Positions 2,722 to 3,228 of a stretch of 64,000 nt of DNA are shown here, in pieces. Origin of the DNA: Pantoea vagans (GTDB lineage Bacteria; Pseudomonadota; Gammaproteobacteria; Enterobacterales; Enterobacteriaceae). The notes beneath the pieces are model-generated. The model saw nothing but the letters and a program-made list of their open reading frames with translations, did not search any database and was not told where the DNA came from. The stretch spans positions 2,108,001 through 2,172,000 of the forward strand of contig NZ_CP038853.1 of NCBI RefSeq assembly GCF_004792415.1. The letters run 5' to 3'. The stretch's first letter is position 1, and each line of letters opens with the position of its first letter. The position numbers and the translations under genes are program-made.

Positions 2722-2756
2722 GAAAAAAGGCGGAGTGGTTAGCTCCGCCTTGTTTC
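2722..2756 (-). terminator. Rho-independent terminator of the tisB-like mRNA
   Basis: A 9-bp stem AAGGCGGAG / CTCCGCCTT (2727-2735 with 2743-2751) is followed on the minus strand by a run of T. It lies 10-15 nt after the toxin stop and would end an mRNA of about 340 nt begun at the LexA-controlled promoter. Confidence 0.85.
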
Positions 2757-2765
2757 AAGTTCCGG

Positions 2766-2855
2766 TTAACCTGCGTGACCGGTCAGTTGCATAAGGGCAA
2801 CGATGATCTGCAAGATGACCCGGATAAGATCCAGAATCAGCTTAGTCAGTTCCAT
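2766..2855 (-). CDS. tisB: TisB-like small membrane toxin (29 aa)
   Basis: A 29-residue hydrophobic peptide, MELTKLILDLIRVILQIIVA then LMQLTGHAG. It has the same length as E. coli TisB and the same type of single amphipathic helix; the stretch ILQIIVALMQL lines up with the TisB segment ILKLIVAALQL. Such peptides insert in the inner membrane and collapse the proton motive force, giving SOS-dependent persistence. A strong AAGGAGAAGGA ribosome site precedes the ATG. The gene sits at the end of a transcript with a LexA box at its promoter, a long 5' leader of about 200 nt, a terminator, and a divergent sRNA complementary to the leader. This full context is what supports the call; ZorO-type toxins are the nearest alternative. 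Confidence 0.82.
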   Translation of the reverse strand: MELTKLILDLIRVILQIIVALMQLTGHAG

Positions 2856-2909
2856 CACTTTCCTTCTCCTTTTTCAGGAGCGCGCTATTCGGCAACCAGG
2901 GCTTTGACT

Positions 2910-2963
2910 CTACCCGCCGGGTGCCTGAGCACATCTTTGTGGAGAGGGCTGAGCGGCACTCAT
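2910..2963 (-). CDS. short leader ORF in the tisB-like mRNA (tisA analogue?)
   Basis: A 17-codon frame (MSAAQPSPQRCAQAPGG) lies in the toxin leader and overlaps the sRNA target at 2936-2954. In E. coli the tisAB leader also carries an upstream frame, tisA, which is not needed for toxicity. No good ribosome site is visible, so it may be merely leader RNA. Confidence 0.25.
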   Translation of the reverse strand: MSAAQPSPQRCAQAPGG

Positions 2964-3067
2964 GGTTAAAGCCACAGGCCAGCACCACCTGATGCCTGCC
3001 GGGATTTTTAAAACCGTGCCCCTGGGAGCGGCCAGTCGACAATGAGGCGATGCTCAACACTCAACAC

Positions 3068-3083
3068 ATGTATAAACATACAG
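3068..3083 (-). promoter_or_regulatory. LexA box over the tisB-like promoter
   Basis: The plus strand reads ATGTATAAACATACAG, against the consensus CTGTATATATATACAG. One arm is perfect (CAG) and the other has one change (ATG for CTG). It overlaps a plausible minus-strand promoter (TTTCGC, 16 bp, TATACA), with transcription expected to start near 3060. It predicts SOS induction of the toxin mRNA. Confidence 0.75.
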
Positions 3084-3097
3084 TATTTTGGCGAAAC

Positions 3098-3126
3098 TTG
3101 AAATCCTTAGCCGCACATTTTACAAT
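3098..3126 (+). promoter_or_regulatory. promoter of the IstR-like sRNA
   Basis: TTGAAA (3098-3103), a 17-bp spacer and TACAAT (3121-3126) form a near-consensus sigma70 promoter. It lies outside the LexA box, so expression should be constitutive, with a start near 3132. Confidence 0.75.
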
Positions 3127-3131
3127 CTTGT

Positions 3132-3228
3132 TTGTGGAGAGTGCTGAGCACCTCGTTCGTAGCGCGGTTACCAGCCGGGTAGCGAACAAAAAAATAAAGG
3201 ATTTGGCGCGATGCCAAATCCTTTTTTT
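3132..3228 (+). ncRNA. istR: IstR-like antitoxin sRNA
   Basis: Predicted RNA of about 97 nt running from the promoter at 3098-3126 to a terminator at 3196-3228. Its 5' end reads TTGTGGAGAGTGCTGAGC; bases 3131-3149 repeat 2936-2954 with one mismatch in 19, so the RNA is complementary to the toxin mRNA leader about 85-100 nt upstream of the toxin start. Between the pairing region and the terminator is a stem GTTCG/CGAAC (3155-3159 with 3183-3187). Position, divergent orientation, constitutive promoter and distant leader target all match IstR-1 action on tisB. The 5' end is predicted, not measured. Confidence 0.75.
3196..3228. terminator. bidirectional terminator
   Basis: A 12-bp stem AAAGGATTTGGC / GCCAAATCCTTT with a five-base loop is flanked by T runs on both strands. 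It ends the IstR-like RNA rightward and the dehydrogenase operon (stop at 3267) leftward. Confidence 0.9.

Follow-up and report, generated by a model that had tools for sequence, protein, structure and literature searches.

In the 64-kb window of Pantoea vagans DNA analysed here (the window being the whole stretch, not the locus), a gene for a short hydrophobic peptide, preceded by a strong ribosome site, lies back to back with a gene for a predicted small RNA (sRNA), and a LexA-type box overlies the presumed promoter of the peptide gene (Table 1). The initial annotation had described this arrangement as a TisB/IstR-type toxin-antitoxin locus, and its parts were confirmed at base level. From their predicted ends, the leader would measure about 200 nt, the toxin mRNA about 340 nt and the divergent sRNA about 97 nt. 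The near-consensus promoter and the terminator that had been assigned to the sRNA were both recovered, as was the terminator of the toxin mRNA, with 0.7 promoter sites of the same quality (10 of 12 positions) expected by chance per 1.2 kb. The open reading frame of 29 residues also stands, although its start is probably the GTG at 2858 rather than the ATG at 2855, since the next codon is ATT instead of ATG in two of 60 Pantoea sequences and since plasmid relatives and dinQ use GTG at the same place; the motif GTGAT is present in 59 of the 60.

Table 1. Features of the locus in the window (sRNA, small RNA; positions in nucleotides).
Feature	Position	Strand	Evidence
Toxin ORF	2766..2858	-	30 residues from GTG 2858 (29 from ATG 2855), stop included
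Toxin mRNA terminator hairpin, then T run	2727..2751	-	Found by search; conserved in 22 aligned loci
CTCCT...AGGAG hairpin, predicted to sequester the ribosome site	2866..2880	-	CTCC...GGAGA motif in 59/60 Pantoea rows
Antitoxin target in leader, candidate standby site	2936..2954	-	18/19 pairing; changes coordinated with sRNA in 11 distinct duplexes
Two-stem leader hairpin, hexaloop GUGGUG 2983-2988	2975..2998	-	Model R1 match and covariation (20 loci)
LexA-type box CTGTATGTTTATACAT over presumed toxin promoter	3068..3083	-	Kept in 60/60 Pantoea rows
Antitoxin sRNA promoter TTGAAA-17-TACAAT	3098..3126	+	10/12 consensus positions
sRNA 5' pairing tail	3131..3149	+	18/19 match to 2936-2954; covariation; duplex energy
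Internal sRNA hairpin, loop UUACCAG 3168-3174	3165..3177	+	Loop complementary to leader hexaloop
sRNA terminator	3196..3228	+	Found by search

The locus is widespread in the genus. A close copy of a 561-base stretch was found in 22 of 24 Pantoea genomes, G010 and G014 being the two that lack it, and in none of 16 genomes from other families of the order. A conserved 32-mer occurs on 38 named contigs, 33 of which are labelled Pantoea in the records, and the remaining labels read Erwinia sp. S63, [Erwinia] mediterraneensis, two Enterobacter records and one unnamed Enterobacteriaceae. Of these 38 named contigs, L176 (at a contig end) and L173 (truncated) are not among the 60 rows used below, which contain some genomes twice. 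When 22 loci were aligned, the ribosome site, the peptide, the LexA-type box, both terminators and both pairing regions stood out. The 60 rows hold 22 distinct peptides from 31 distinct coding sequences, with a crude dN/dS of 0.235, and the toxin peptide thus looks to be under constraint in Pantoea; the stop codon is lost in two rows, which lengthens the peptide by nine residues. A gene that from its translation resembles a sorbosone dehydrogenase adjoins the locus in 54 of 62 cases, some of the 62 sequences ending too early on that side, and from this mostly constant neighbourhood the locus seems to be an old chromosomal resident. Further copies of the leader element were seen in a few genomes (G002, G007, G012).

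Our results show that the two RNAs are matched to each other. The complementarity that had been proposed between the 5' end of the sRNA and the toxin leader was recovered in full, and the predicted duplex reaches -37.5 kcal/mol, against a mean of -26.6 (sd 3.2, lowest -37.1) for 500 shuffled sRNA ends. The 60 rows yield 11 different duplexes, each 17 columns long (counting from 0). Coordinated changes of target and sRNA occur at columns 8, 11, 12 and 16 and, in one instance, at column 7, where the remaining variation is confined to the target; column 3 has one G-U type change and column 16 is mismatched in one duplex. Pairing amounts to 97.9%, against 91.7% when partners are shuffled, and none of 5000 shuffles was as high, a figure that is not a true probability as the rows are related. 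As read from these alignments, the antitoxin 5' end and its target do change together. Likewise, when 26 antitoxin 5' ends were set against their 26 leaders, every end bound its own leader most strongly, a comparison that is partly circular because the tails were chosen by their match to their own leader. The target was said to be as distant from the toxin gene as in Escherichia coli; it does lie far upstream, but ends about 80 nt from the start, compared with about 100 nt in tisB.

Is the locus under SOS control? The pattern CTGTATN4ATACAK, with one mismatch allowed, has a single place in the window, the box of Table 1 (listed once per strand), where 0.18 matches are expected by chance and at least two matches were seen in 6 of 100 shuffles. 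In the 4.79-Mb genome the pattern has six places: this locus, three that adjoin RecA-, UmuD- and SulA-like translations, and two beside other ORFs, these names being read from translations. The last two (G000:C1:2603847-2603862 and 627686-627701) have as neighbours one ORF of unknown kind and one that is GGDEF-like. Full CTGT-N8-ACAG is found in 45 of the rows and ACAT in the other 15, as in the window copy. It could be argued that the box matches by chance or is a relict, and that the locus is not SOS-controlled, since one core base deviates in the window (ACAT for ACAG) and SOS control is deduced here from sequence; with a LexA-type box kept in every row, full in most, and the pattern so rare in the genome and so often beside recA-, umuD- and sulA-like genes, we consider this highly improbable, and the proposal of a LexA box over the toxin promoter is borne out. 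The initial annotation had further expected that the peptide would be kept together with the box and the sRNA. Within Pantoea this holds in 60 of 60 rows, whereas plasmid relatives outside the genus keep peptide and sRNA with no clear LexA box.

How close is this locus to tisB/istR-1? As in E. coli, there are a short hydrophobic peptide, a LexA box, a ribosome site that is sequestered as judged by the sequence motif, a divergent sRNA that pairs through its 5' end with a leader segment well ahead of the ribosome site, GUGGUG in the loop of a leader hairpin and ACCA in that of an sRNA hairpin; the 5' structure element beside the candidate standby site corresponds here to the shared covarying hairpin described below and not to the published pseudoknot. 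Unlike in tisB/istR-1, the pairing tail is different, the peptide is only 38% identical over the alignment, and the gene neighbours, named from translations, differ from those in K-12, where tisB lies between ilvB/ivbL and emrD. By database tests the locus is not a member of the TisB or IstR family: the window peptide matched neither Pfam PF13939 nor the NCBIfam TisB model up to E 10, the K-12 controls matching, and the antitoxin had no match to Rfam istR RF01400 up to E 5, where the K-12 control scored 150.1 bits. In the control genomes of the genome-wide searches, RF01400 matched Synechococcus only and PF13939 nothing. The NCBIfam models NF041472 and NF041473 (DinQ/DqlB) did not match the window peptide either; among 17 aligned peptides, three match Pfam TisB and three match each of these two models. 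Rfam, Pfam and NCBIfam gave no name to any part of the locus.

The nearest relatives by peptide include loci on plasmids that lack a clear LexA box. While tblastn of the window peptide against plasmids gave no match, a DNA search with L023, the second copy in genome G007, matched 30 plasmid records, and the same query matched no phage record. Sixteen of the 30 have no annotated feature under the match; the other 14, mainly Providencia plus Rts1, show a hypothetical protein and PsiA. These unannotated plasmid loci comprise the Rts1 type beside psiA and loci on Klebsiella, Mixta, Serratia, Erwinia and Pantoea plasmids, and they share with the window the leader hairpin, the divergent sRNA, 39-54% peptide identity (four plasmid peptides aligned) and QLT after the hydrophobic core. 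They differ from the Pantoea locus in their positively charged C terminus, their mostly different pairing tails and, again, the box. The Rts1 relative (L043:4001-4295) adjoins psiA and a parB-like region, where nothing is annotated as a toxin-antitoxin system; 11 plasmid records from Providencia, and three other records, have a match of this kind. Further relatives (L044, L045, L046, L050, L051, L053, L054), carried by Klebsiella, Pantoea, Mixta, Serratia and Erwinia plasmids and unannotated at the match, are possible addiction modules. The dinQ/agrB locus and plasmid dqlB/agrB resemble the Pantoea locus in layout, leader hairpin and GTG start, and dinQ has a LexA-type box; in dinQ/agrB, the peptide (26% identity), the longer pairing and the tandem sRNAs of K-12 are different. 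In shoB/ohsC the leader hairpin carries the same hexaloop on a changed inner stem (ACGA/UCGU) and ACCA lies in the OhsC terminator loop, but there is no clear LexA box and the peptide is another one. A 2017 review (PMC5668327), in the part covered, already states that dinQ/agrB regulation resembles that of tisB/istR-1.

We propose that Pantoea carries here, on its chromosome, a type I toxin-antitoxin locus under LexA control, TisB/IstR-like in the way it works, a reading that we hold with considerable confidence. The design put forward in the initial annotation is supported by the covariation, the LexA-type box, the constraint on the peptide, the sequestration and the hairpin, its parts and their conservation being legible in the DNA itself; membership of the TisB/IstR family is what the databases did not return. 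The lack of a Pfam TisB or Rfam istR match, the ACAT of the window box, the two lost stops and the two genomes without the locus weigh against the proposal. By analogy with TisB/IstR, LexA would repress the promoter of the mRNA for the hydrophobic peptide of about 30 residues; with its ribosome site folded away, translation would need a standby (landing) site far upstream in the leader, and the constitutively made sRNA would pair with that site through its 5' end and block translation. Upon DNA damage, we infer, the toxin mRNA would outrun the sRNA, and the peptide would be made and act on the inner membrane as TisB does. The module could instead be a domesticated one of the addiction type, its peptide now a mild SOS-induced membrane regulator whose level the sRNA merely tunes, with a role other than toxicity. 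Plasmid-borne relatives exist, the neighbourhood in Pantoea is mostly constant, and dqlB/agrB, of similar design, has been shown, in the parts of the reports covered, to be an addiction module on pOXA-48 and pOXA-484 (PMC12365149, PMC12317039). Against this, antitoxin and target keep covarying and sequestration of the ribosome site is maintained, both of which point to a cost of escape, and we regard domestication as unlikely.

A hairpin is common to the leaders of tisB, dinQ and shoB of E. coli K-12, of the Pantoea locus and of the plasmid loci. It consists of an outer stem, a short bulge on the 5' side (of two bases in most loci, and replaced in dinQ by a larger internal loop), a 4-bp inner stem and, with few exceptions, the hexaloop GUGGUG, and the antitoxin target begins some 20-40 nt downstream of it. 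In 20 aligned loci, 93.9% of the hairpin cells pair, against 76.6% in shuffled alignments, and seven of nine pairs have changed on both sides; the covariation score is 0.514, against 0.208 when shuffled (none of 500 shuffles reached it, and slid controls gave at most 0.136), while the number of further pair types, 14, was not above the 12.4 of the shuffles. The model built on it (R1) matches the window at 2953-3006 with E 1.1e-14, the window itself being a model member; it is the one strong match in this genome, the next having E 0.26. At E 0.05 the model matches 126 of 392 genomes of the GTDB family, but many listed matches near E 0.02 span model positions 12-29 only and may be due to chance; 30 loci and 80 regions, from the stronger listed matches, were analysed. 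In an order-wide sample it matches 18 of 394 genomes, all within the GTDB family, with no match outside it at E 0.002. Two partners for the hexaloop within the mRNA were considered and rejected: the window mRNA 5' end, which pairs with the hexaloop region in one fold, varies in the 22-locus alignment, and base pairing between the loop and leader stretches further upstream did not, by eye, hold generally. L158 and L164 (genus g143) are DinQ-like loci with 7 of 8 core bases in a LexA-type box, perhaps a further SOS-controlled case.

The core bases of the hexaloop, UGGU, have ACCA as their complement. This word lies in a possible antitoxin hairpin loop outside the pairing tail in 111 of 119 loci when a stem of at least three pairs is required, and in 104 of 119 when at least four are; the search takes in possible local hairpins, not the best fold alone, and ACCA was sought in the loci after it had been noticed in a few antitoxins. 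As controls, 1200 random 66-nt windows were taken from flanking DNA, and 107 of them have ACCA in a loop, as do 10 of 245 terminator-like hairpins. IstR-1, the Pantoea sRNA and the plasmid sRNAs carry ACCA in an internal hairpin; OhsC and several further antitoxins have it in the loop of the terminator. The eight loci without it are five with GUGGAG in the mRNA loop, two Pantoea loci with ACCC, and Rts1, which has CACCA in a larger loop. The 119 loci, 67 of which share the tisB tail, include seven from Pantoea (L001, L008, L010, L012, L014, L019, L021), most Pantoea loci being left out. Also set aside were L149, L159, L160, L169 and L171 (by eye, chance or coding), L161 (no sRNA repeat found), L111 (a CRISPR spacer), L040 and L052 (no hairpin found), L058-L064 and L067 (places of earlier loci or further Pantoea) and L036 (the same place as L062).

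On this basis we propose a second, loop-loop contact between the antitoxin ACCA loop and the hexaloop. A rival reading, to which we give somewhat less than an even chance, is that the hexaloop acts inside the mRNA only, by a pseudoknot or by S1 or 30S binding, and that the ACCA loop serves protein binding, stability or the like. In the part of Romilly et al. 2020 covered (PMC7708055), the tisB 5' element is needed for translation and matters for 30S and S1 binding even without the antitoxin; 14 of the 60 Pantoea rows have ACCC with the mRNA loop core unchanged; and L148 (GUGCUG) and L154 (GGGGUG) have deviant mRNA loops without a matching change in the antitoxin, all of which counts against the contact. 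L148 has a toxin ORF of 17 residues and is possibly decaying. Against the rival reading stands the recurrence of the word: with the antitoxins grouped into 22 types, ACCA scores 20.1, the top of 256 words with a mean of 1.27 per word, whether in internal or terminator loops. The types are approximate, as grouping by shared 9-mers merges a few unlike loci, and a seven-locus Pantoea group seems to hold one that is DinQ-like. In the GUGGAG clade (six loci), moreover, UCCA lies in a loop of all six antitoxins, one of which also has ACCA, a joint change that amounts, on these sequences, to one compensatory event; the upstream leader has CUCC in most members, which could pair within the mRNA and would fit the rival reading. 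Finally, seven loci on viral contigs of IMG/VR (L210, L212, L222, L223, L235, L238, L240), with the tail repeat and a ShoB-like peptide, all carry ACCA in the terminator loop, and they stand against that reading as the sole set found after ACCA had been noticed. They were found by the mRNA pattern and judged by eye: 20 of 34 viral hits were inspected, the seven full-length model matches being loci and the 13 without a full-length match none.

Taking these observations together, we hypothesize that TisB/IstR, DinQ/AgrB, ShoB/OhsC, the plasmid loci, the viral ShoB-like loci and the Pantoea locus form one superfamily of RNA-controlled toxins with a GUGGUG hairpin by the standby site. Each antitoxin would make two contacts with its mRNA. 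Its 5' tail, fast-evolving and specific to the locus, would sit on the standby site and give specificity; its ACCA loop, conserved and fixed, would kiss the hexaloop, a contact common to all that would serve docking or break a pseudoknot. The Pantoea locus would be of the plasmid type, having become chromosomal and gained its SOS control separately from tisB. We give the hypothesis as a whole an even chance; its hairpin part is well supported, the two-point contact less well. Romilly et al. (PMC7708055), in the same part, describe tisB, zor and shoB as not homologous and predict differently shaped pseudoknots, and their stem 2 falls within the outer stem of the shared hairpin. Shore et al. 2024 (PMC11264685), as far as covered, worked on E. 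coli only and describe a GGAGTG element in zor, which resembles the GAGTG before the Pantoea target. Wen et al. (PMC3919570), in the part covered, discuss a kissing start at the OrzO 5' end and report chimera experiments with the IstR and OhsC sRNA bodies as scaffolds, and both of these bodies carry an ACCA loop. In the literature covered, which takes in subscription journals in part and includes portions of PMC4147584, PMC11228461, PMC8145889 and PMC8309996, we found no report of the Pantoea locus or of an ACCA/GUGGUG contact.

What does this mean for the organisms and for the known systems? The plant-associated genus Pantoea gains a genus-wide and probably SOS-controlled toxin locus without a name in the curated Pfam, Rfam and NCBIfam collections. 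A common hairpin and a common antitoxin loop would offer a testable reason why one leader design recurs despite unrelated pairing tails. If the contact is true, the antitoxin of the best-studied SOS toxin recognises its mRNA by a second element as well, for which we found no description in the literature covered, and the chimera experiments, as seen in part (PMC3919570), could be re-read. The leader element also turned up in a CRISPR array: the hairpin-model match at L111:502-533 (G100, contig 10) is a 32-nt spacer in an array of 61-nt period, and by eye the same 32 letters stand in the leaders of the ShoB-like viral-contig loci L212, L223 and L235. A bacterium seems to hold a CRISPR spacer against a phage-borne copy of the element.
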